Assembly: GCF_949628265.1 (NCBI RefSeq)
Contig: NC_088786.1
Span: 36,539,681-36,603,680 of the forward strand
DNA length: 64,000 nucleotides
Source of the DNA: Cloeon dipterum
Taxonomy: Eukaryota; Arthropoda; Insecta; Ephemeroptera; Baetidae
Direction: 5' to 3'
The position numbers and the translations under genes were made by a program. Under the pieces are notes generated by a model. That model was given only the letters and a program-made list of their open reading frames with translations. It was not told the DNA's origin and did no database searches. Positions 5,303 through 64,000 of this stretch are shown piece by piece (the stretch's first letter is position 1; every line of letters starts with the position of its first letter).

Positions 5303-8300
5303 CTACAACTGATTTCTAGCATTTATTGCTCGAATAAACGCAACGACGCTATCATCTCCAATCCACTCCTGAAATTTTGCACCAATTTGGCAAAGTTCTT
5401 CTGGATCGTCACTCTGAAAGTATCGTGGCAACCTTGGATGACGACCCTTGATGCCTAGCCAAAATTTAAAATTAACCAATGAGGGTACATGAACAGCAGC
5501 CACTGCGATAAAGTCTCTTAAAGCGCGCAGCAGATCATAGTTGATTTCACGGTAGTTAATAGATCCGAAGAGCCGCAAACTAAAACTGGTGAGTTGACAA
5601 AAAATTTTCTTATCGGCCATCAATGACGTCAGCTTCCGAAGATTGTCAACACTAATCCAGTCATGCCGACATGAAAGGTTTACTTTCTCCATATTTGGCG
5701 CAGCAAGGATGTTGGTCATCTCAAATTGATTTCTGTAACAATCGAGACAAAGGTTTTTTAATATAATAATTTATTGATATTTTTTGTTTTATTTTAAAAT
5801 GGGTTAGTATATAAACACCAGCGGGGTCCAGATTCTTGCATCGCGCAGATATGGCGTCCGGTGGAGAACGGGTCACGTGAAAATGCGCGAAAATAAGCAA
5901 GTTTTGGTCAATATTGTGACATAATGTGCATTAATTGTGTCTTTTTGATCGTAAAAACAAACTCTTGACACTCGCACGGCAATCCAAAGAGAGCTTTTTG
6001 TTTCCCCCATTCAGACGCCATCTTGGATCTGCGCAGTGGGAAGCAATTTTATCGCACGTCTGACCCCCGCTGATGTACACAGGTATATAGTTTCTTCTAA
6101 AATCTTGCTTTACTTCGGTTTCCAGTGAAGTTCTCGCAGCTGCGCGAAAGACTCTATGGGCTTCATGTCATCCAAAATCAACACATGACCCAATTCCAGC
6201 TTTCGCAGTTTCGGGCAAGCATCGAAAATCCGATTGAATGAAAAGTTGAGCCAATCTTTTGACTCGATCATGAGAGTTTGCAGGTTGGCTCCGTACGCTT
6301 CTAATAATGAGTTGAGGGTAGAAGCTAACGGCTGAATACGCAGATTTAGACTCTCGATGTTAGCGAATCTCAAAATCGAGGCGTGTTTGTTCTCTGGCTC
6401 AATCCCGGTACAATCTGCCTGCAACATATGACGGCATTGATTTGCTTTAATTATATATAAGCTCACTCAACATGATCATCCGTGGGTTATTTTCAACAAG
6501 AGTTAAATTTTGTTAAATTATAAATTTAATCTTTCTGAGTTCAAGCAGCTCATCTTTTATATACTAGTCCAGCGGAGGCCAGATTCGTGCGACGCGCAGA
6601 TATGGCGTCCTGTGGAGTATGGCGCGAAATAACGGTCACGTGAAAATGCGCGAAAAGAACCAAGTTTTGGTCAATATTGTGACGCATAATTTGCATTACT
6701 CCAGCGGGGGTCAGATGTGCGATAAAATTGGTTCCCACTGCGCAGATCCAAGATGGCGTCTGAATGTAGGAAGCAAAACGCTCTCTTTGGATTGCCATTA
6801 CGAGTGTCAAGAGTTTGTTTTTACGATCCAAAAGACACAATTAGTTAAGAGTAATGCAAATTATGCGTCACAATATTGACGAAAACTTCCTTCTTTCCGC
6901 GTATTTTCACGCGACCGTTTTTTCGCGCCACACTATACATCGGACGCCATGTATATGCGCGTCGCACAAATCTGTGGCCCCTGCTGCATTACTATTAACT
7001 AATTGTGTCTTTTGGATCGTAAAAACAAACTCTTGACACTCGTACGGCAATCCAAAGAGAGCTTTTTGTTTCCCACATTCAGACGCCATATTGGACCTGC
7101 GCAGTAAGAACCAATTTTATCGCACATCTGGACCCCGCTGGATTTGTCATTTTTTTTAAATATTCAAAAACATAAACATCCCTATTTTTTAGCAACACCT
7201 AAAAACAATGAATATATTTGTTACAAAATATCAAATTATTAACCAAAAAGGTTATGGTAATATACGTTAAGTAAAAATAACGGGTTTTTATGACTGGTTT
7301 TAATTATTTTTCAGTCTTTCAGCGACTCTTATCTGAACAATCTGTTGGTTTAAATTTTGTTGGTCTCATGCTTTACATAAAATGTATTTGTTCATGCAAT
7401 GTGAGATGCGAGCATTAAATATATTTTGAGTTGAGTGCGGGCTACTTTACACCTAAATTTGAATCTCTTGCATTTTATAATAATGACAAGCCAAAACTTT
7501 CCCAATTATGATTTTTGACGGTGTCGTCGGTCGGTTTCTGAATTGTATGGCTTTGCTACTTTTGCACCTTTCCAGCATGCGGTATATTTAATATTACGGA
7601 AAGAATAGCGGCCGCGCGGAGAAAAAAAGGGAAAAAATAATTGGAATTTTTTCATATATCGTTATTTATTAAACTTCAAATCTCGGCTTGTAACCATCAG
7701 AAAATCGAAAACTTCCCACCGTTGGATTCGTCTTGACCTACCCTGACGAACTGAAAGGTTAAGGGGTCCCTACCCTCCACCCTTATATCGCTAAACTTCG
7801 ACCCTATCAGAAAAAGTAAAAACGAGGGTAGCATCTTAGGGGTGAAGGGTAAGCACCCATTCAGCTCGTCAGGGTAGGTCAAGACGAGTCCAACGGTGGG
7901 TAGTTTTTTACTTTCTGATGGTTAGAAGCCGAGATTTTTGGAGTTTCAAAAATTACGACATTTTTTGTATTTGTTTTGGCTATTTATATACTTACTTTTA
8001 AATGGGTCACGTTTGGAAATGCTGCTGGGAGGTCAAAGGTTGTTGGAGCTGTATGCAAATGCCGCAACGAAGATGTCTCATCTGGAACAGTCAATTCCGG
8101 CATTTGAAAAAAGTCTCTTCTGCTGTCAGCAAAGTCGTAGACGACTTCTAATTTTGGCAAGTGTCGGATGCACAGTTTGATCACCTTCGTCTCCAGTGTA
8201 GATAATTTTGCATTAAACAAAAACACTCTCAGTCGAGAAAAGCTCGCTTTAAAGTCCTCGATGTCAGCTTCTATGTCATCTTGTTCTTGGGCGAATTCAA

Positions 8301-36077: not shown

Positions 36078-37703
36078 ATGATATTTGGTGCGAGAAAAAT
36101 CCATAAAAACCATTTAATATCAGGCCCGAACTACGGGGTAAGTTTTATTAATTGTTAATATTTGAATGGGGATATTTTTATTGCTATCATCATTTATTGT
36201 AAATGTGATTTTTTATTATTTAAGTAATTTCACTGTCTTGATTACTAATACTTCAACCACGAGACGAATAATTGCACTGCCAAAAGACGCATTTCTGTCA
36301 CGGCTCCACGTACCCACAGTATATTTAAATTCCGTCTTTGAGGAGGTTTCTGAGCACCGAGTTAGCGGAATAACTACCCGCTCTCTTGTTAAATTCTTCT
36401 ATTTTTTTTTAATTTACAATTGGCACGTTATTATAATTCGATTATTTATTTATGCTTTCAGATTGCCAAGCTAAAAGCTACGAGAATGGAACTTATGGGA
36501 CGTTCCGTAGTAGATATGTTCACCAAGAACGTCGGAGCTGCCAGGCTTCTTTTCGAACATCGTCGAAACAAGTCCGCTTCGAACGTGTGCAATCCGCTCG
36601 ACTTTTGCGTCAGGTCGAACAATCTGGAGTGGGCAAAATTTTTCTTCCAGTTTGACCGTGAGGAATTAGTGAGTTCAAACACCCTGTTGCTGGCTGCCAG
36701 GTACGCAGACGGAAAAATGTGGAACTGGTTGTTTAGAAACGCCGTCGATGACGGTTCCTTGGACTCTTATTGGAAACATTTAATCTTGCGCTTGGCTGCC
36801 AGTAACAAAGAGCACGGACATGAGGTCATCCCCCTCCTTTCTCGCTACAAGTACCACGTGAACGATGTGGGGCTCGATGGGAAAACTCCTCTGACCATCG
36901 CCCTGGCCGACCAGAACATCAGGGCGGCAGAGCAGCTGATCAGGATTGGTGCGAGTATTCAATTCAGAGTGGCAGGCTACAATCTGCTGCAGATCTGCGC
37001 CATCAACAGCCTGACGGACAGCGTGAAATTCCTGTACGAATTAAACGAGCGAGTTTTGGTCCGGCAATTTTCAACTTACGGAGAAAGCATTCTCATGGTG
37101 GCCGCCATGTTCGGGACCAAGGAGATGTGCGAGTGGCTCCACGACGAGAAGCAACAAAAGAAGGAGGCCGTCTGCAACAAGTTCAACGCGACTGTCACCC
37201 ACTACGCCGCGTACAACAAGAAACACGGAATCGAGATCATCGACTTCCTTGGTCGCGACATCGTCCTTAAACAGGTGCACCACAAGAACCAATTCGGCGA
37301 GACGCCGCTGCACTGCGCCCTCAAGTCAGGAAATACCGCCGTGGCGAGCCATTTGATCAACGAATACAACGCCGACCTGCGCGTGAAAACGCGCAAATTG
37401 AATCTGCTTCACTTCTGCGTGATGAATAACCAGCTAGAAAGCGCCAAATTGGTCCACAAACTAAATAGAAACCTGATCAAGATCAGGGGCCAAGGAGGGA
37501 AGAACCCTCTGCACGTTGCTGCTGAGTACGCTGATCTGGAACTTTGCCTGTGGCTCGTCGAACAGGGCGTTAACCCGATGCATACGACCTTTCAGGGAGA
37601 GACCGTACTCAACCTCGCCAGGGACAATGAAGACGTGCGGACTAATTTCAATAAACTGTTGTCCTTATATTATAAGCTTAAAAAAATCGAAATTCCAAAA
37701 TAA
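36078..37703 (+). CDS. Ankyrin-repeat protein
   Basis: Main exon 36462-37703, acceptor GCTTTCAG. An upstream exon ending at 36137 (donor GTAAGT) joins in phase 0. Start choices: ATG at 36078 (MIFGARKIHKNHLISGPNYG joined to IAKLKATRMELMG), an earlier in-frame ATG at 35925, or ATG 36486 in the main exon (405 aa). The joined product from 36078 is 434 aa. Ankyrin units are visible as DGKTPLTIALADQNIRAAEQL, YGESILMVAAMFGTKEMCEW, FGETPLHCALKSGNTAVASH and GGKNPLHVAAEYADLELCLW, each followed by L...G/N. The protein is mostly ankyrin repeat with a short basic tail (YYKLKKIEIPK). No membrane segment or second domain, so it is probably a soluble interaction scaffold. Its coding part is clearly GC-richer than its flanks. 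AATAAA near 37725. Confidence 0.85.
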
Positions 37704-47923: not shown

Positions 47924-50175
47924 ATGGTTTCCTCGAAAGAGCACGTGCCAACAGATCAACTGAGGAGAGAAGAAGACGTCACCACAAGCGTGGAAACGAC
48001 TCTGAACCAATTCATCGACGAGGGAATGAGCAGAGATTTTCTTGACGAAGTGATGACACTGCAAAATTTGCGTAAGTATCAAATTATTTCATGCATGGCA
48101 GCCGAGAATTTTAAAATGAATTATTTGCAGCATTTCAAAATTTGTGTAGATTATGAGGGTTCGGGGGTGAAGGGGGCGGGTGGGGCTGGCGATTGGGTTT
48201 AACATACGCAGAATGTTACGCCGAGAATGGCAAACATTTGTTTTTGATCGTGCGACCCATATGAGCCGAGCTATGAATTTTTCGAATTTTTAAATGTTAT
48301 AAATAAATGCGGTTTGCTCAAATTAAAATTCTGGTTTTCAAGATCTGGCTGGGGCCTCGGGGGCCGGCGGGCGGTGTGTGTCTGCCCGTATGCGCATTTT
48401 CAAAATTGGACCATTTTTCGAAAAACAGCGAATTTTAACTGGCAAAATTTCTGAAATAATTAATTTTCGGATTTTTTACGATGAGAATACGCCGCCTTGC
48501 CACCTAGCCGTCTTGCCTCTCGCCTATATTGAATTAAAATCATTTTGTGTGAATTTTACCGAATTCGTTTACAGGGTTTGGCCAGGGCGGTGAAGGAAAT
48601 TCGCATTTTTCGACAACTTGCAACTTCCGGCCTCCGTAACTCGCGATTGAAAATATAATTAAAAATTCAACACGTTTCCGATTTGGAGCGATTTTACTAG
48701 CAACTGTTTGAGACCAAGCACCACCCGATCGCATAAAAATTCAAAAAACGGTTTCACTTGAAAGACTAAAAAACGTGAATTTTTCATTTTCCCCGTAATA
48801 TTAACATGAAAAATTGAAAATTGGCGGTTTCTTCGAAACGCTGACCTATAATGTTTTGCAAAAAACAACGCAGATGACCAACGCGCGCGTCTGCCTACCA
48901 TTTTTCCCAGTTTTCAGATTTTTGGAGCCCATAGAAAAATTAAAATTCGATTTATTCGGGTTTTTGAGTTGGCGGTCGTGAATGGGTTTCTTTTCCGAAA
49001 AATTCTATCAATCGTGCTAGCATCGACCACGACCTCTCATCGGATAGGTCTTCGTCTCGGCTCTCATGGGCAATGCACTGATCACCTTCTCCAGGGTACC
49101 CCGACCTGAGATCACTTCAGAGGCGTGATTTTGGTGCCTTTTCCGCTCTATTGAGCTAGGTTCGCGGTTCTTAATGCAAATTTTAAATCTCGCCCACCAC
49201 CAACCTTCCTCAGGGCGCCCCACCTGAGGGCTGCCTTTACGCCGCTCTGCCGATGCAGACGCTTATTTTCGGATTCTGTGGGTTCCGCAATGCTAATTTA
49301 TTCCAAAATTTGACATTCTCGAGGGCCACTGACCTTCGCCGCCAGGTCGCGCCACCTGGGTGCTATACAAACCCATATATTACTTAAAGAGCTGAATATT
49401 TCACACGGATAACAATTTTTCTGTCGTTCCTGCCATTATTTTTGCGGATTACAGTCTGGTTTTCAGTAAGATTAAATCTGAAATCGATGTGAAAACACCT
49501 GAAGGCTTGTGTTGCCATCAGTTGGCTTCTTTTGAACTTTAAATTTGAAATTTTAATTTCTATGTTCCTATCATCGATCCTTTTTAGTTACCGGGGGAAT
49601 TTTGATTCGAATAAACACAAAGAAGCAATTAATTAACCTCATCGCTAATTAATTAGAAAAATCATATTGTTTCAGCTATTCCTGCCTCCATTGCCAATGA
49701 GACGAAGGTGACCGAGTTCTTGCCGGCTTCAGGGAATTATTTCGAATTTCTATCCGGAAAGGATGGCCACGACCGGAACCCGATCGGAGGGTCCTCGCAG
49801 ATTATTGCACAGCTTCCACCCCAACTGATCTTCGCCCCGGTTGCCGAACTCACCCCCAGTGGCTGCTCGTTCCAGGACAACAGGGTAATTCCAGTTGCAA
49901 GAAAGCTTACCATCGGAGGAAAGGCAGAAGTGGATAAAAATAGCCCAGAATATAGGGAGAAACGCAATAAGAACAACGAAGCAGTGAAAAAATCAAGGCG
50001 CAAAGCAAAAGAACGGGAGAATGAAATCAAGGAGACGAACAAAATTCTTAAGGATGAAAACGAGCAGTTGAAAAAAGTATTAGCCTATTTGAAGGCAGTT
50101 GTTGATAAATACCGTGGTTCAGTAAAAATCAATGACCACGAATTTCAAATGCCTCCTTCGTTCTCTGGCATGTAG
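47924..50175 (+). CDS. C/EBP-family bZIP transcription factor (215 aa)
   Basis: Coding exons 47924-48071 and 49676-50175. Donor GTAAGT and acceptor TTTCAG join C|CT in phase (LQNLPIPAS). ATG lies three bases after an acceptor-like TTTTACAG, so a non-coding 5' exon is likely. Near the C-terminus: a basic region EYREKRNKNNEAVKKSRRKA, whose NNEAVKKSR core is the C/EBP-type DNA-contact signature, followed by a leucine zipper (NEIKETNKILKDENEQLKKV then LAYLKAVVDKY). Short size and sequence suggest the C/EBP-gamma/Irbp18 branch. Such proteins dimerise through the zipper and bind CCAAT-type sites in the nucleus, in stress and differentiation control (family knowledge). AATAAA at about 50202. The 1.6-kb intron is rich in short repeats. 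Confidence 0.85.
49030..49365 (+). repeat. Tandem stem-loop motifs in the bZIP intron
   Basis: Three related motifs: CTCCAGGGTACCCCGACCTGAG, CCTCAGGGCGCCCCACCTGAGG and CGCCAGGTCGCGCCACCTGGG. The second is nearly self-complementary. A relative, TTTCAGGGTAGCCCACCCTGAG, is at about 51573. Confidence 0.5.
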
Positions 50176-56984: not shown

Positions 56985-57954
56985 GGTCACAGGATTTTAT
57001 TGTTCATTTGCAAAATTAGCATGAGCGTGTACATGCATGCAAAAATTCGTATTTACCAGCGGGGACCAGATTCGTGCGACGCGCAGATATGGCGTCCGGT
57101 GGAGTATGGCGCGAAAAAACGGTGTCACTTGAAATTACGCGAAAAGAACCAAATTTTGGTCAATAAATTGAGACAAAATTAGCATTACTCTTAACTAATC
57201 ATGTCTTTTGGATCGTAAAAACAAACTCTTGACACTCGTACGGCAATCCAAAGAGAGCTTTTTGTTTCCCACATTCAGACGCCATCTTGGATCTGCGCAG
57301 AGGGAACCAATTTTATCGCACGTCTGGCCCCCGTTGGTATTTACAACACAAAAAGAATTGATTATAAATAGAAATTTATAGGCTAAAAAAGAAACTTGTT
57401 TCAAATCAACGCGTTGGCACAGTATTTTCGTCAAAGCTTATAAAAATTCAGAGCAAATGAGCCGCTTGTAGATTTCTCTAGACGTTTCCCATGGCGTTAA
57501 ATAATCTGTCAATTTTCCTACTGTCGCTGGAAGGAGGAAACTTCTATAATGCCTACAAACAAGGCAGTGGGGAATTTTGCTGAAAAAATAAAATTGTTCA
57601 AATAAGTCACATTTCTGTGCGTCCTTGCCGTATAGAAATTTACACAATCCCTGGCTGATGAACCGACATATTTTGAATAAAATCAATAGCATATCCAGCC
57701 AAGGACAAAATTCACTTCTTCTCATTAATAAGTTAAAAATCTTAATAGGAGAATCATGTACTTACAAAACGTTTATTTTGTGCCGCGGATTACGGATTAC
57801 TCAAAAGCCAGCCGCGGCGGGTGGATCCCCAAGCGGCGCATAATGCGGGAACAGATATAGCAGATTGCCGATAAGGCAAAGGACGCCAAAAGTATCAGAA
57901 GACTGAAACAAAATAGAAGAAGGTCACTAAATAATTAATTCAAAATTTACTTAC
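56985..57954 (-). other. 3' part of S1 transcription unit (exon 3 region)
   Basis: A donor (GTAAG) after 57766 and acceptor TTTTTTCAG before 57579 define a third, non-coding exon that runs to AATAAAATCC (minus strand, signal 56996-57001). MITE M2 copy 3 is inserted within this exon. Confidence 0.5.
57057..57336. mobile_element. hAT-type MITE (M2), copy 3
   Basis: CAGCGGGGACCAGA to TCTGGCCCCCGTTG with a perfect 8-bp duplication GTATTTAC (57049-57056 and 57337-57344). The youngest-looking copy; lies in the 3' exon of S1. Confidence 0.9.
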
Positions 57955-57992
57955 ACGAGGAGCACGAGTTCCTTAGAAAAGCTGTACGACAT
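57797..57992 (-). CDS. Membrane micropeptide S1 (47 aa)
   Basis: Exons 57992-57955 (ATG to CTC CTC GT) and 57902-57797; codon GT|T keeps phase. The peptide starts MSYSFSKELVLLV, continues LLILLASFALSAICYICSRI and ends MRRLGIHPPRLAFE. One long hydrophobic segment (about residues 9-34), then a basic C-tail; probable single-pass membrane protein. The stop is about 31 nt upstream of the next donor, as in S2, S3 and S5. A TATA box at 58047-58052 lies 55 bp upstream of the ATG. No known family recognised. Confidence 0.7.
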
Positions 57993-58046
57993 GATGGTTC
58001 AGCGTGAGGCTCTTTGTAAACACAAGAAACTCAAGTTGATTGAGAG

Positions 58047-58052
58047 TATATA
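58047..58052 (-). promoter_or_regulatory. TATA box of S1
   Basis: CTATATACTC on the minus strand, about 55 bp upstream of the S1 ATG. The upstream block AGGAATTCAAAC..(58095) recurs in front of S2 and S3. Confidence 0.55.
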
Positions 58053-58168
58053 GCGGCCTTAATATGCCCAGCAGGAAAATAATTCCGAACAATCAAGGAA
58101 TTCAAACACGTCGCCAAATAAAATTGCTAGAATTTCTTCCATTTTTTTGATACAGGTAAAGCCATATT

Positions 58169-58279
58169 GGGGCGGATCACGGCAACACAACCTTGAGAAA
58201 ATTTGGCAACACTGAGCATAAGGCAAGCATTGTACAGTGTTTCAAGGTCGAGCTAAAAAATGGTGCCATGATCCGCCCC
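58169..58279. mobile_element. MITE M4, copy 2
   Basis: GGGGCGGATCACGGCA to TGCCATGATCCGCCCC; interior GTACAGTGTTTCAAGGTCGA is the inverse of copy 1. Lies just upstream of the S1 promoter. Confidence 0.75.
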
Positions 58280-58674
58280 ATTTATTCCTTAATTGATTTT
58301 CTGAAGCTCCAGTGACAAATGGATCATTATTTTGTTATTCTAAAATATAGAAGAAATCTAGATTAGCGGGGGAAATTTTTACCAATTTAGCACAAATGGT
58401 TTAAATTAATTTCTAATTACGTGCGAAAAAAACTACTTATTCGCATTTTAAATAAATGAAGTCTTGGCTATCCTAAATAATATTTTTTCCGATTCCTTCT
58501 AACTGTTAACATATCTCGTAATTAATGTCAAAAGACCAAACACGAAGTTGAATTTCACTAAACGATTGTCATTAATTTTTCTGATTCGGGAAGCTATTCT
58601 TCCTGCCATCTCGATAGTTTAAATATTAAAAGGTGAATTGAACAAAAAGAGAGTAATTATTCAGGTCGCTGGAT

Positions 58675-58680
58675 TTTATT
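58675..58680 (-). terminator. Poly(A) signal of S2
   Basis: AACAATAAAATCCAGCGACC on the minus strand. The same 20-mer context closes the unit of S3 (61027-61032), and a near copy closes S1 (56996-57001). Confidence 0.55.
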
Positions 58681-59231
58681 GTTGATAGGCCACCTCATCA
58701 TAAATTGTATACATGCGAAAAATTCATGAAAGAATAGCTTTTGTGTTTAAAAAAGAAGAAAATGCTTAGAATCATTGCGTTGGCACAGAATCGTAGTAAA
58801 ATCAAACGCAACTTCTCTGGTATCCTGACTGGATCAGGATTTTGGTCACAGCTTAAAAGAATCGGTTGAAAATAATGAGCCGCTCGTCGAATCCTTTTGA
58901 AGCTTTCTATGGCGTGTATGAAATCAGTGTGGGTCCTGCTATTGTTGCTGGAGGGACGAACGTCTAACACAGCAGAGGAATTTCATCAGACGTTCAGAAA
59001 ATATTCAGCGAAGTTGCTTCTGAAATGAGAAAATTGTACGAATGAGAAACAATTCTTTGCATTCTCTCTATGGACAAAAATTGATAGAATTCCAAATAAA
59101 ATTTCGCTTTGATCCCCAAAAAAGATCATAAATTATGTTCGCCACAAAGTGAAAGTTAAAAACCTTCAAAACAAATGCGAAAAAAGTTACATCAGCACTT
59201 ACAAAACTTATTGGGCGCGTCACATTGCGGT

Positions 59232-59523
59232 TTAATCATAATCCGATAACGCCACGGACTCCCACGCGCTGTAGTTTGATCTTGCGCGCGGCCCAACGTG
59301 GCGGAGCCAACACTCGTAGAGTTCTCTAATGACAATAATGAGTGCCACAGCGGACCCAAACCTGCAACAATAATGGGAGTTTTTAAATAATGGTGATTTA
59401 GTGTCTTTAGTCCTTATTTTGAAAAAGTGATAAAATGAATTTGAAAATTTATATGTACGCTTACACGCTCAAAAGGAACAAGAAAAAATGATCCGTAATG
59501 AATGGCACTAGTGAGCTGGACAT
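59232..59523 (-). CDS. Membrane micropeptide S2 (62 aa)
   Basis: Exons 59523-59465 (59 nt) and 59361-59232; codon GT|G. Starts MSSSLVPFITDHFFLFLLSV, then FGSAVALIIVIRELYECWL (membrane segment spanning the junction), then RHVGPRARSNYSAW and an acidic end ALSDYD. It shares FITD..F and FG.AV with S5, its nearest relative. The third exon starts at 59019 (acceptor CATTTCAG) and ends at an AATAAAATCC signal at 58675-58680. Confidence 0.75.
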
Positions 59524-59600
59524 TTTGTGTTGAGCGGCTCTTCGTCTTCGTCCACGCAATATATCTCAAGAGTGAAAGGTTTGGCTAGGAGGTAGCTTCG

Positions 59601-59607
59601 TTTATAG
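59601..59607 (-). promoter_or_regulatory. TATA box of S2
   Basis: CTATAAACG on the minus strand, 78 bp upstream of the S2 ATG. The leader contains TTGCGTGGAC and GCCGCTCAACA, shared with S5. Confidence 0.5.
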
Positions 59608-59708
59608 CAGGAGAGTGATTCCAAACGCTCGAGGAATTCAAACGGTGGCAAATATAATTAGAAGAATTTCTTCCTTTCTATCTAGAGGTAAAATTCTTGA
59701 AGGAATTG

Positions 59709-60127
59709 ACCAGTTGCATAAACCCTTAGTGTTTGAAGCCGCCAACAGATGGCGCAACCATAGACTTTCTTAAAAAATTGTGTTTTCAGCGGTTTTAAGG
59801 CTTATCCGCTGCGATTTCAGACTCAATCTAGCTATTTTTCTTTTTTTAATTAATTTTCTTTTTTTTTGACGTGCTGAAAACCAAAATCGGTTCAGCCATT
59901 CGCCGTAGAATCGTATTTTTTTTAAATAAAAAAATCTTCCAACGCGTTTCTACGGCGATTGGCTGAACCGATTTTGGTTTTCAGCACGTCAAAAAATAGC
60001 AAATTAATTGAAGAATGCACAGTAGCTAGATTGAGTCTGAAATCGCAGTGGAAGTGCCTTAAAAGCGAAAGTCTACGGTTGCGCCATCTGTTGGCGGCTT
60101 CGAACACTAAGGGTTTATGCAACTGGT
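59709..60127. mobile_element. Foldback MITE F1, copy D (most complete)
   Basis: ACCAGTTGCATAAACCC to GGGTTTATGCAACTGGT, flanked by a perfect 6-bp GAATTG (59703-59708 and 60128-60133). Two arms of about 190 bp could form one long hairpin. Confidence 0.9.
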
Positions 60128-61020
60128 GAATTGAACAGGATCCAACAAAAAGTTAATAAATTCCAGTGTAAATAGATTCCATTATATTTAGAATGGGATC
60201 ATTTTTTAATCTGAAAATAAGAAAAATGATTTTCTTACTTACTTAGCTGTGGGATAACAAGCAGTGAAAAAGACCCTGAAATAATTCGATTTTGTCTTGG
60301 GTGTATTTTTGAAATTCTAACAGAACAATTTTGGTGAGGCTAATCTTTACTTGAAACAAACCTTATTATTTTCTTGATTTTCTCTTTACGCGGTGCTAAT
60401 TCTTGAATACCGCCATGAATTTCCATATTTTGACTTCATTATAAACCTTAAAACCGATCAAAAATAACAGGGAAAACATACTTTTTTGGCAAAAATGGTT
60501 CAATTTTTTTTCTAAATCTGTAAGTAACATCAATTCCAAATTCATTTATTACATTTTATTTGAATTTTAAATCAATTAAGCAGGGGTGATTTTGCTTAAC
60601 AGTCAAATTTACTAATTTCTTGCGCAAGAAATAATTTTTTCCCCATTTTCCTCTGGGAAAATCTTAAATTTGCGGTCGGAATGGTCAATACTTCCTTTAC
60701 TGTGCAGATTTTTTCTTTAAAATTGCTACTTGCTGCCTCAATTTCTACAAAATTATATTTCAGACAAATTTTGAAGTCGAGGCCATGAGCAAATTACAAT
60801 AAAAAAATAATTGAAAATTTAGGTGCAAAAGAAACTGGTGAAAATTGTACCTTTACTGCATATGCATTAAATTAAGCGTTTTTTCCAACCCTGAAATTAA
60901 ATCTTGGATCTCTTAAACGATATTTCTGTCTCTCTCAAGCTGTGAAAATGTATTGTGATATTTTGAAAGATTAAACACGAAGGTGAATTGCACTAAAAGA
61001 GCGTTTTATTATTCAGGTCG
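60128..61020. other. Spacer between S2 and S3 with hAT fragment
   Basis: No gene. Holds a decayed piece of the hAT family at 60605-60895. Confidence 0.5.
60605..60895. mobile_element. hAT-family fragment, copy C
   Basis: TTTCTTGCGCAAGAAAT, ATTGCTACTTGCTGCCTCAA and the GTCGAGGCCATGAGCAAATT block align with 44260-44480 and the inverse of 1680-1880. Ends not recognisable. Confidence 0.65.
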
Positions 61021-61026
61021 CTGGAT

Positions 61027-61032
61027 TTTATT
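61027..61032 (-). terminator. Poly(A) signal of S3
   Basis: AACAATAAAATCCAGCGACC context, as at S2. Confidence 0.55.
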
Positions 61033-61634
61033 GTTTACGGGCTACGTCATCTTACATTATCTTGGGAAAAATAGAAGAAAGAATGGATTTTGTGTGTAAA
61101 TAGAAGGAAATGCATACATTAATTGCGTTGGCATTGAGTTCTAGTGAAATCAAACGCAACTTTTTTGGTATCCTGACAAAATCAGGATTTTCGTCAAAGC
61201 GTGAAAGGAAATCGGAGTAAAAGAGCCGCCTCCTGTCGAGTCCTCTTCAAGGTTTTTATGGTGTAAAATAATCGTTTTGGGGTTTCTAATGTTGCCGGAA
61301 GGAACGCCGCAGATAGGAATTTCATCAGACATTCAGAAAATGTTTGGCGAATTTGCTTCTGAAATGAGAAAATTATTGTACATATGAGAATCAATTCTTT
61401 GCATTCTCTCTACGGTAGGAAATTGATAGAATTCCAAAATTAGAAATTAGCTGATAAGTACCGACACTACCGACGTATTTTGAATAGTCCTAAATACGTA
61501 TATAAAAATAATTTAAGATCCCCAGACAATGTCGAAGTTCATAAGTATGTTAAAAAATCTTCAAATCCAATGTAAAAATTCCAATTAGAAAAAAATACAT
61601 CACTTACAAATCGTATCCAGAATATTTCGGCGCA

Positions 61635-61878
61635 TCAACGACGTTTTTTCCTCACAACCAGCCGCCTTCTGTTGCGCGGCCTATTACGTCGGCTCAAGGA
61701 GAAAAAAATGATCGCGAACAACAGAAAGTGGGGTCTGTAATGAAATTTTGTTGTAATGGTAAATGACGCATCCATTCAAAAGAAAAATTTGACAAAATGT
61801 ATTTTGAAATTTTACTTACATCATACCCACGATGAAGTACAAAAGTGCCAAATCCTCATCATCTTCCATGATGGTCAT
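61635..61878 (-). CDS. Membrane micropeptide S3 (52 aa)
   Basis: Exons 61878-61820 (59 nt) and 61734-61635; codon AT|A. The first ATG gives MTIMEDDEDLALLYFIVGM; a second ATG is three codons in. The membrane segment runs about ALLYFIVGMIPHFLLF then AIIFFSL, followed by a strongly basic tail SRRNRPRNRRRLVVRKKRR. An acidic N-terminus plus Arg-rich C-terminus fits an N-out/C-in topology. Stop 27 nt before the next donor; third exon from 61358 to the AATAAAATCC signal at about 61027. Confidence 0.75.
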
Positions 61879-61930
61879 GTCTTCCTTTGCCAACACAAGG
61901 TAACTAACTCATAAGAGCGTAATACGCGCC

Positions 61931-61940
61931 TATATAATAA
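61931..61940 (-). promoter_or_regulatory. TATA region of S3
   Basis: TTATTATATAGGCGC on the minus strand, 53 bp upstream of the S3 ATG. AAGGAATTCAAACG and AATTAGAAGAATTTCTT follow upstream (61977-62020), shared with S2 and S1. Confidence 0.5.
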
Positions 61941-62867
61941 AGCTACAATATGTAGCCCCTTTTATTCCAAACGCGCAAGGAATTCAAACGTTGACAATAA
62001 AATTAGAAGAATTTCTTTCATTTTACCTGCAGATAAAATTCTCGAAGAAATGGGACAGAATGACTTAAAGTTCCAGGACATTTTATTAGTGTTTTTAATT
62101 TTTTTTTTAATAGTCAAGGTGTTCTTTACAATTCCCTCATATTTCAAGAAATTCTTGTCATTTATTTACTCAGGTAAATGCAATAAAATATGATCTGCGT
62201 TCGCTGGATTATATACTTTTTTATTCATTTGGCGTCATAGACCTAGGCGCGTGTAAATTCAAGAAAAATACAGATAGATAGCATTTTTAAACGAGGTATT
62301 GATGTGCGTAAAAAGAAGTAAATGTGTAAAATTATCGCGTTTGGCCCTGAATTGTAGTAAAACGAACGCGACAACGTCTTACAGATAAACAGGGGTTTTT
62401 CGTCAAAGTTTAAAAAGAGCGCCAACTAATCCAATCAAGTTTCTTAAAAGTCGATTTTGTACTGTGGTGGAAGGAGGGAGGTCTAATCAGCCAAATGCCA
62501 GAGGAATTTCTTCCAACTATCACGTTCTGAAATTTTGAAAATGTTCAAATGAGCTTTCATGCTGGACAGAAATTCATAGAATTCCTTAATAAAAATTTCC
62601 ACTGCGGCTCTGACATATTTTGGATACAATCAACTGAATTCTAATCACTCCTGCCGTATTTAAAAACTAATTTTGAGAGAGACAAGGTCAAAATTCATTC
62701 AGCCTCATTGTCAGAAATAAAAGTAAAAAATCACGAAAGAAATATGAAAATTACAATTTTAACAACACTCTTACAATATGTATCCAGTCAATGGGTTCTA
62801 CGACACCGTCAGGATCGGGTCGTTGTGGCGGTGGGAGTTGGAATTTGTCGGTCTTCTTATAAGAGCG

Positions 62868-63047
62868 CTAAACATAGAAGACCCCTTGGCTCATTGCAAT
62901 AACAGTCATCATCTTCATAGCACTGAAACATATTTATAATAACGTGAGATTTTTTATACTGGATGTTTCCTCTTTTCAAATCAGTGATTAAATATAAGGG
63001 AAATTTACTTACAAGATGGTTTTCCAGTACGGGAACAAATTTTTCAT
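62868..63047 (-). pseudogene. Micropeptide gene S4, truncated frame (29 aa)
   Basis: Exons 63047-63013 and from 62922; TT|T keeps the family's phase-2 junction. The frame reads MKNLFPYWKTIF then AMKMMTVIAMSQGVFYV and hits TAG at 62870-62868. If that stop were ignored, 31 more open codons run exactly to the next donor at 62775 (RSYKKTDKFQLPPPQRPDPD...). The stop lies 93 nt before that junction, unlike 27-38 nt in its sisters. Probably a decaying copy, though a 29-residue product is possible. TATA-like CATAAAAGG at 63144-63150. Confidence 0.55.
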
Positions 63048-63657
63048 TGTAAATGTGATGGATTTGGCGAAGATCGATATTGTCTTTGCAGTGCGCGTGG
63101 TAGTGCCAACACAATAATGAACTCAGGGTGGTAGAGCGGTGCCTTTTATGTGCTCCGGAATCAAGGAATTTAAACCTCGTGGGGTTTTCCTTCGTAATTC
63201 TCTGCTCCTCTTTTTCATTCAAATAAAATTATATTATTCTTAATTGCTATGTGTGGGGGGGGGGGGTCAACTGGAATTTTTTACCTCTTTGTGCTGAACA
63301 ACCTCCAAATTTACATTTCTTACTATCCATATCAGATCTTTAAATATTTTTCTTGTGATTAAACAGGTTTTAGTTGGCCGGGAATAATTATTTTAGGTCG
63401 CATATCAAGTCAAATATAGTTGCACACCCTAAATTATAAAAGAAAACATCGGGTGCAATATATTTTCGTCTCTAGAGAGAACAATTTAGCGCATTCGTAT
63501 TACTCCTATACATATTTGAAATATTTTGATAACCCTAAACAAAAGGTCAGAAATTATTTGAGCCTCAAAGAATTAGTTAAAAATGTCCAAATCAAATTGC
63601 AAAAATTAATAAAATGCTCTTACTTATCCAGTATTATATTGTGCGCTCAATTGAGGT

Positions 63658-63937
63658 TTAATCCTCATCATCCGATGACGCGAACTCGCAATAAAGGGAT
63701 TTTAGTTTCTTATTATGCGTGGCCTTACGACGACGTCGGCAGCAACAGTGGATAAGTGCTTGAATGGCAACAATTACCGCGAACCCAAACCTGAAACAAT
63801 AATGGGATTGTTGAAATGATGGTGATTTATTGTCCTTAGTTTGAAAAAGTGTTCAAATGAAATTGGAAATTGACTTACATGCTGAAAACGGTCAACAAAA
63901 AATCGTCCGTAATGAATGTCGCTCGTGAGTTGTTCAT
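63658..63937 (-). CDS. Membrane micropeptide S5 (63 aa)
   Basis: Exons 63937-63879 (59 nt) and 63790-63658; codon AT|G. Starts MNNSRATFITDDFLLTVFSM, membrane segment FGFAVIVAIQALIHCCC, basic RRRRKATHNKKLK, acidic end EFASSDDED. The CCC next to RRRR at the membrane edge could be palmitoylated (inference). Stop 34 nt before the donor at 63624. The promoter TATATAAAA (63973-63981) is 36 bp upstream of the ATG. Confidence 0.75.
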
Positions 63938-63972
63938 TGTTGAGCGGCCCTTTGTCCACGCAATAATGCTTC

Positions 63973-63981
63973 TTTTATATA
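63973..63981 (-). promoter_or_regulatory. TATA box of S5
   Basis: CTCCTATATAAAAGAAGC on the minus strand; the best TATA match of the five. GGAATTACTCTC just upstream matches GGAATCACTCTC upstream of S2. Confidence 0.6.
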
Positions 63982-64000
63982 GGAGAGAGTAATTCCAAGC

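Follow-up and report, generated by a model that had tools for sequence, protein, structure and literature searches.

Within the window, a stretch of 64,000 nt from the genome of the mayfly Cloeon dipterum, five units designated S1 to S5 lie one behind the other on the minus strand (Table 1). They were rebuilt from the window sequence, and exon junctions and product lengths agreed with those claimed in an earlier note on this DNA, including the 59-nt exon 1 of S2, S3 and S5 and the broken frame of S4. All five first introns are in phase 2 with a GTAAG donor and a CAG acceptor, and in all five units the junction falls within the best hydrophobic stretch, as that note had described. Its claim of a TATA box in every unit holds for S2 to S5, which carry TATA-like motifs, but the box of S1 is weak (CATATTA). 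The frame of S4 stops early, and a near copy at C1:36607697 reads through to 67 residues.

A further donor, proposed to lead from just behind the stop codon to a non-coding exon, was located 31 nt (S1), 29 nt (S2), 27 nt (S3) and 34 nt (S5) behind the stop. The exon itself was recovered for S1 to S3 and also for S4, each with an acceptor and an AATAAA signal, but for S5 no exon 3 of its own was detected in a motif search; the sequence following S5 exon 2 resembles the stretch upstream of the near copy of S4. Exon 3 of S2 has 21 matches in the genome, itself included, and most units of the family possess a non-coding exon 3. Transcripts that join this exon into a longer protein, an alternative raised by the earlier note, are unlikely because its copies carry indels that are not multiples of three, and because in the type B units with a placed exon 3 it merely completes, as judged by eye, a stop codon that intron 2 interrupts. 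Two hairpins noticed by eye in exon 3 were rejected as a structured RNA, since RNAalifold predicted just four pairs with -0.95 kcal/mol for 14 type A copies. The window contained no Rfam match at the gathering threshold and no hit in a tRNA search.

Table 1. Predicted features of the five units, in window coordinates (nt)
Unit	Feature	Position	Strand	Remark
S1	Upstream conserved element	58082..58106	-	TTTGAATTCCTTGATTGTTCGGAAT; position counts over 25 type A models
S1	Exon 1 coding part	57955..57992	-	38 nt, phase 2
S1	Intron 1	57954-57903	-	
S1	Exon 2 coding part and stop	57797..57902	-	47 aa product
S1	Exon 3, non-coding	56995..57579	-	to AATAAA at 57001, end approximate
S2	Upstream conserved element	59618..59642	-	exact match to the searched 22-nt core
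S2	Exon 1 coding part	59465..59523	-	59 nt
S2	Intron 1	59464-59362	-	
S2	Exon 2 coding part and stop	59232..59361	-	62 aa product
S2	Exon 3, non-coding	58675..59019	-	to AATAAA at 58680
S3	Upstream conserved element	61964..61988	-	
S3	Exon 1 coding part	61820..61878	-	59 nt
S3	Intron 1	61819-61735	-	
S3	Exon 2 coding part and stop	61635..61734	-	52 aa product
S3	Exon 3, non-coding	61027..61358	-	to AATAAA at 61032
S4	Upstream element, type B variant	63150..63174	-	TTTAAATTCCTTGATTCCGGAGCAC
S4	Exon 1 coding part	63013..63047	-	35 nt
S4	Intron 1	63012-62923	-	
S4	Exon 2 frame to early stop	62868..62922	-	29 aa, broken copy
S4	Exon 3, type B	62220..62526	-	to AATAAA at 62225
S5	Upstream conserved element	63992..64000	-	first part beyond the window (from C1:36603696)
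S5	Exon 1 coding part	63879..63937	-	59 nt
S5	Intron 1	63878-63791	-	
S5	Exon 2 coding part and stop	63658..63790	-	63 aa product

The family to which the five units belong has at least 38 members, 30 of them intact, in clusters on contigs C1 and C2 of C. dipterum. This number comprises 34 gene models, a unit at C2:36016855 that has lost its start and three decayed units (C1:36756065, C1:36758311, C2:36022560), the last four assigned by eye; it is a lower bound, with the intervals 36.614-36.741, 36.745-36.748, 36.7705-36.7768 and 36.780-36.797 Mb of C1 unread. Together with the four models that are not intact (S4, C2:4831658, C2:4833639 and C2:36016075), eight of the 38 units are broken or altered. 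Type A units share the upstream element, whose 22-nt core has 27 matches in the genome at up to three mismatches, compared to none for a reversed control. The clusters harbor 23 of these 27 matches, among them all 22 at up to two mismatches; a genome search at the latter threshold found none outside the clusters. Whole-genome searches with single proteins returned the known clusters and one further unit near C1:36.770 Mb. Weak matches elsewhere were located at C2:22.1, C2:32.9 and C1:25.2 Mb (E 0.08-0.55), where a promoter scan detected nothing, and at C1:5.03 Mb (E 4). The array in the window exceeds chance and is part of a family of 38 counted units with a conserved reading frame.

The coding status of the family is well supported by several features of its sequences. 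Exon 1 has a length of 2 modulo 3 in all 34 models, which show 12 distinct lengths, with the reservation that open frames had guided the choice of models and that the copies are related; the 20 distinct lengths of intron 1 (33 models) are distributed 8, 7 and 5 over the three residues. A neutral simulation with substitutions only, based on 11 disjoint pairs of intact units, yielded a log10 P of -10.7 (about 2e-11) for the maintenance of open frames and of -13.4 for open frames together with the hydrophobic stretch. The best hydrophobic stretch of 19 residues spans the junction in 30 of 31 models. A topology prediction from hydropathy, which the earlier note had proposed as a check, is in accordance with a single membrane span: lysine and arginine are more frequent after the stretch than before it in 26 of the 27 intact models, with one tie. 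The family thus very probably encodes single-span proteins.

The protein database that we searched seems to lack nearly all members. A profile of 27 members (A1) retrieved no database protein at E<=10, while a control indicated that it would score all of its 27 own members at E<=0.8 at that database size; therefore members that reached the scored candidates would have shown. A closer profile of eight members retrieved a single entry, P0015, a "hypothetical predicted protein" of C. dipterum, whose sequence crosses the same exon junction as the family units; in a corresponding control, a seven-member subprofile (A4 less one member) recovered its own members at E<=3.1e-20. Absence from the database is likely rather than certain, because only 100 words were used and because A1 missed P0015. 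The published C. dipterum annotation was built with transcript and splice (RNA-seq) hints (PMC7250882), and we infer RNA support for P0015. None of the ten members scanned with cut-offs shown reached a Pfam gathering cut-off, the best being ECSCR with 22.9 versus 27.0 bits; the best E-value among all 27 members was 8.2e-05, for this same ECSCR match. Profile searches of the PDB gave no match below E 0.05, and no relative outside C. dipterum was found among the database proteins searched. A description of the family is absent from the accessible text of the matches listed in literature searches on mayflies, microproteins, orphan and tandem genes, the Cloeon genome paper included. The notion of tandemly arranged, split membrane micropeptide genes without a described family is supported.

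The family is probably characterized by fast-changing coding parts. In whole-unit alignments of all 238 same-type pairs of 29 intact units, taken without filtering, the divergence of the coding parts exceeds that of intron 1 in 218 pairs, that of the 5' part in 212 and that of the downstream region in 177. The excess over intron 1 was also found in 52 of 58 pairs picked by downstream similarity, in 76 of 81 pairs picked by intron-1 similarity, a selection that favors the claim, and with a protein-guided coding alignment in 131 of 136 type A and 14 of 15 type B pairs. Divergence falls past the stop codon in the subgroups A1 and A2, and in one subgroup the mean value for exon 2 drops from 0.42 ahead of the stop to 0.19 behind it; two of the seven listed type B units, which have no placed exon 3 or donor, were dropped from this subgroup comparison. 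Among 13 disjoint pairs, coding parts evolved faster than the pooled non-coding parts in ten, significantly so in five. The five least diverged of these pairs show no significant difference and three of them are reversed, and of six pairs with a coding divergence below 0.15 only three have coding parts that exceed intron 1. The pair S1 and C1:36743113 is more diverged in its 5' part and exon 3 than in its coding parts. In the membrane segment, changes at second codon positions are only slightly suppressed (36 versus 52 and 39).

Diversifying selection is the reading that we slightly favor for this pattern. Six close pairs differ by few substitutions and give dN/dS values between 0.26 and 4.1, so that positive selection is not proven; dS is also raised in several older pairs. 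Relaxed constraint is a serious alternative with a chance somewhat short of even, an assessment that concerns the selection part only and overlaps with the preferred explanation. It assumes the same coding family, with no demands on the coding parts beyond hydrophobicity, length and frame, whereas the promoter, the intron and the 3' exon stay similar through constraint or gene conversion. The least diverged pairs without a coding excess are in accordance with it, as are the six close pairs, which sum up to 68 non-synonymous changes at 793 sites and 14 synonymous changes at 218 sites, so that dN is near dS. Conversion-like exchange is documented by mosaic copies such as C1:36763161 and C1:36759621, which share 0.98 of the 5' part and 0.44 of exon 2; discordant neighbors were counted in 22 of 34 cases of the mosaic comparison, a number that is inflated by broken copies with a short exon 2. 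However, the coding parts of most older pairs lie well above intron 1, and relaxed constraint accounts for them only if the introns are constrained or homogenized.

Short single-helix membrane proteins are known from FXYD proteins, phospholemman, phospholamban and insect sarcolamban, of which the FXYD proteins have their N-terminus outside and a basic segment inside. A role of the mayfly products as comparable regulators of membrane pumps or channels, perhaps in freshwater ion balance, is improbable, even though their size and predicted topology fit and a family profile weakly touches the chains of FXYD6 and phospholemman (E 0.19 and 0.9, not significant). An FxYD motif precedes the helix in none of the 34 models, no FXYD family is among the ten Pfam families listed for the 27 members, and the weak PDB matches, none of them significant, also include unrelated single helices. 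Moreover, a pump regulator would be expected to be conserved and not to diverge as strongly as the 30 copies of this tandem family. It is very improbable that the units are non-coding or decaying repeats, i.e., a duplicated transcription unit with accidental short frames. The eight broken or altered units, a dN/dS near 1 and the better conservation of the non-coding parts would suit such an origin, but the uniform phase of the 12 exon-1 lengths, the improbability of the open frames under neutrality, the hydrophobic stretch at the junction, the drop of divergence past the stop codon in A1 and A2 and the annotated protein P0015 across the junction all argue against it. A viral origin, for instance as a domesticated gene for a small membrane protein, is hardly credible: the small single-span proteins recall viral membrane peptides and viral membrane families appear among the weak Pfam matches of one or two members (best E 0.024), but these matches lie below the cut-offs where cut-offs are shown, one member found no relative in a collection of viral contigs, and the layout of TATA box, intron and poly(A) signal is that of ordinary insect genes.

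We propose that S1 to S5 belong to a multigene family of C. dipterum that evolves by birth and death. Each intact unit would be transcribed from a TATA-type promoter with the family-specific upstream element into a short spliced mRNA, and translated into a microprotein of 46-82 aa. Its short N-terminus would lie outside (predicted topology N-out/C-in), followed by a single membrane helix, whose coding sequence the phase-2 intron interrupts, and by an inner segment that is mostly basic and has a variable tail. Selection would keep the coding parts different, while the flanks may be homogenized or constrained. Our guess, offered tentatively, is that the products act in the cell membrane as effectors of defense or recognition in a fast-changing conflict with microbes or parasites or in mating. 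Strong divergence of the coding parts amid a conserved promoter, intron and 3' exon is a mark of families in evolutionary conflict, and few such families of single-helix membrane proteins are known. The annotation of a model mayfly seems to lack nearly all of these roughly 30 intact genes, owing to their shortness and split structure. The family is a clean example of how exon phase and flank conservation, rather than length, can reveal overlooked microproteins.

The pattern, though not the sequence, has counterparts in other multigene families. The trappin genes of armadillo, cow and pig possess a non-coding exon 3, and the rate of evolution was much higher in their coding regions than in non-coding exons, introns and flanks, with synonymous sites also raised in armadillo and pig (PMC2831891). 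The likeness is one of pattern only, since trappins are mammalian WAP-domain proteins of host defense without sequence relation to the mayfly family or an intron-cut membrane helix. The three-finger toxin genes of viperid snakes have three exons and two introns, and family members with similar introns differ clearly in some exon segments (PMC2474615); they are venom genes of another fold and unrelated sequence, and toxicity is not claimed for the mayfly products. The orphan small proteins of aphid bacteriocytes are also lineage-specific and have been proposed to act towards microbes; they carry signal peptides, are secreted and often cysteine-rich (PMC3574423), whereas the mayfly helix looks like a membrane anchor.

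The phase-2 junction in the middle of the helix might make exon 1 (outer part and half of the helix) and exon 2 (second half and inner tail) interchangeable in-frame cassettes, an idea that we regard as doubtful. Recombination, and possibly splicing between neighboring units, would then build new exon combinations; with respect to the latter, an own exon 3 was not found near S5 and C2:36016075. If true, the family would represent a system by which an insect diversifies membrane microproteins combinatorially. P0015 appears to be such a combination, with an exon 1 like that of one subfamily and an exon 2 like that of another: its exon-1 part is closest to C1:36770403 (15/18) and its exon-2 part to C2:36016075 and C1:36753554.

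The tandem array of split micropeptide genes that the earlier note had proposed from sequence alone was confirmed, and it could be extended from five units to a larger multigene family. All five minus-strand units (S1-S5) were reconstructed with the lengths claimed for them. In this order, exon 1 measures 38, 59, 59, 35 and 59 nt and the products 47, 62, 52, 29 and 63 aa, and the phase-2 intron 1 is present in each unit. S4 is truncated by an early stop, while its near copy just beyond the window (C1:36607697, in the fetched stretch L009) continues to 67 residues. The further non-coding exon that had been postulated after each intact unit holds with the exception of S5, where no exon 3 turned up in a search by motifs; the sequence past its exon 2 is similar to a stretch upstream of the near copy of S4. 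A segment at the 3' end of S1 (57000-57340) recurs at 5817-7145 of the window with 83-93% identity as well as in L009 and L015, a second stretch outside the window, thus indicating a dispersed repeat inside the last exon of S1. An extended, imperfect inverted repeat separating S2 from S3 (59730-60110) was spotted by eye and is perhaps a small transposable element.

The size of the family was determined in 190 Mb of genome sequence on 10 contigs, in which the window occupies C1:36539681-36603680. A 401-base query from S5 matches 11 places, S5 included, on the two contigs C1 and C2. Unit after unit shares a common upstream element, which is present in a variant form in the type B units (e.g. S4). 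The 22-nt core of this element has 27 genome-wide matches with up to three mismatches (reversed control: 0), 23 of them inside the clusters, including all 22 with at most two mismatches. Exon 3 of S2 has 21 genome matches, 20 of them inside the clusters; a conserved RNA fold was looked for in the type A exon 3 and found no support. The total of 38 units is a minimum, as the count covers the C1 region in part; a two-exon model exists for 34 of them, one has lost its start and three are decayed. Of the 38, 30 are intact. The near-identical units C1:36778369 and C1:36798899 are located about 20.5 kb apart, and no exon 3 could be assigned to either of them close to exon 2 within the sequence examined.

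The case for a coding family is strong. The length of exon 1 from the ATG to the donor is 2 mod 3 in all 34 models across 12 distinct lengths, and the 20 distinct lengths of intron 1 are spread 8/7/5 over the three residues mod 3. Under random substitution to the observed extent, all frames would stay open with P ~2e-11, and would stay open and also retain a hydrophobic stretch with P ~4e-14 (simulation; 11 disjoint intact pairs each), probabilities that serve as guides because the models were picked with open frames in view, the simulation comprises intact pairs only and the copies are related. Of 31 models, 30 have the junction inside their best 19-residue hydrophobic stretch; of 27 intact models, 26 carry more lysine and arginine after this stretch than before it, and one is tied. 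In the intact type A models of a set of 31 the second donor follows 5 to 67 nt past the stop, and in type B units with a placed exon 3 the stop codon would be completed by splicing across the second junction, as judged by eye.

The products are most likely single membrane helices whose N-terminus lies outside and whose inner segment is mostly basic, a predicted topology that we regard as probable; a pair of cysteines separated by three residues or fewer occurs in 13 of the 34 models. Small-protein families that change fast and expand in tandem often function in defence, recognition or reproduction, and the present results single out none of these roles. Pump regulators resembling FXYD proteins are a rival by form only, given that the FxYD motif occurs in none of the 34 models and that no match reached significance.

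When the DNA of whole units was aligned for the 238 possible same-type pairs from 29 intact units, it showed that coding divergence exceeds that of intron 1 in 218, of the 5' part in 212 and of the downstream part in 177 pairs, and that it exceeds intron 1 divergence in 52 of 58 pairs chosen by downstream similarity. Mean divergence of exon 2 in A1, a type A subgroup, is 0.42 before the stop (36 pairs) and 0.19 after it (25 pairs), and in type B the mean divergence amounts to 0.46 for exon 1 versus 0.13 for the 5' part (10 pairs). Other results weigh against this pattern. Among 13 disjoint pairs the coding parts are faster in ten, significantly so in five; none of the five least diverged pairs differs significantly, and three of these are reversed. 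Coding divergence exceeds that of intron 1 in three of the six pairs in which it is below 0.15, dN/dS ranges from 0.26 to 4.1 in six close pairs, and dS is also elevated in several older ones. For 22 of the 34 models, counting broken copies, the nearest neighbour by the 5' part differs from that by exon 2; C1:36763161 has 0.98 of the 5' part in common with C1:36759621, yet 0.44 of exon 2. The simplest account is that exchange between copies would keep the flanks alike, with coding parts that would either be selected to differ or face little constraint other than on frame, length and hydrophobicity; diversifying selection is plausible. Trappin genes are reported to show a comparable mixture, in which synonymous change is elevated as well (PMC2831891), and viper three-finger toxin genes to combine conserved introns with exon segments that have been switched (PMC2474615); both resemble the mayfly units in pattern, but not in family.

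The multigene family is real, nearly unannotated and so far found in C. dipterum only. A profile of eight close members retrieved a single protein from a database of 5.8 billion (E 9.3e-11), namely P0015, a 'Hypothetical predicted protein [Cloeon dipterum]' of 74 aa on a 125,934-base contig. Its first 18 residues agree with exon 1 of C1:36770403 at 15 of 18 places and the remainder is closest to exon 2 of C2:36016075 and C1:36753554, thus P0015 spans the junction at the same point as the family models. The C. dipterum genome paper describes Augustus models built with transcript and splice-junction hints (PMC7250882), and we infer from the name of P0015 and the size of its contig that it stems from this annotation. 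A broad 27-member profile found no protein at E<=10 among 933 candidates, in a search where all 27 own members would reach E<=0.8. The chromosome-scale annotation seems to be without these genes, because the proteins of that assembly are in the searched database. None of the 10 members with cut-offs shown scores above a Pfam family cut-off, no Rfam family was found in the window, and no viral relative was found for the single member scanned. The GAT-rich tail stretch of C2:36016075 is read in a different frame from that of C1:36753554, and the tail of P0015 resembles the alternative frame; frame-switching of the tail may be tolerated in the family.

Other genes of the window
Feature	Position	Strand	Evidence
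Probable C/EBP-type gene	49708-50175	+	155-aa open frame, Pfam bZIP_2, matches to C/EBP chains in PDB
Ankyrin-repeat gene	36420-37703	+	93% identity to C. dipterum protein; relatives on other contigs of same mayfly
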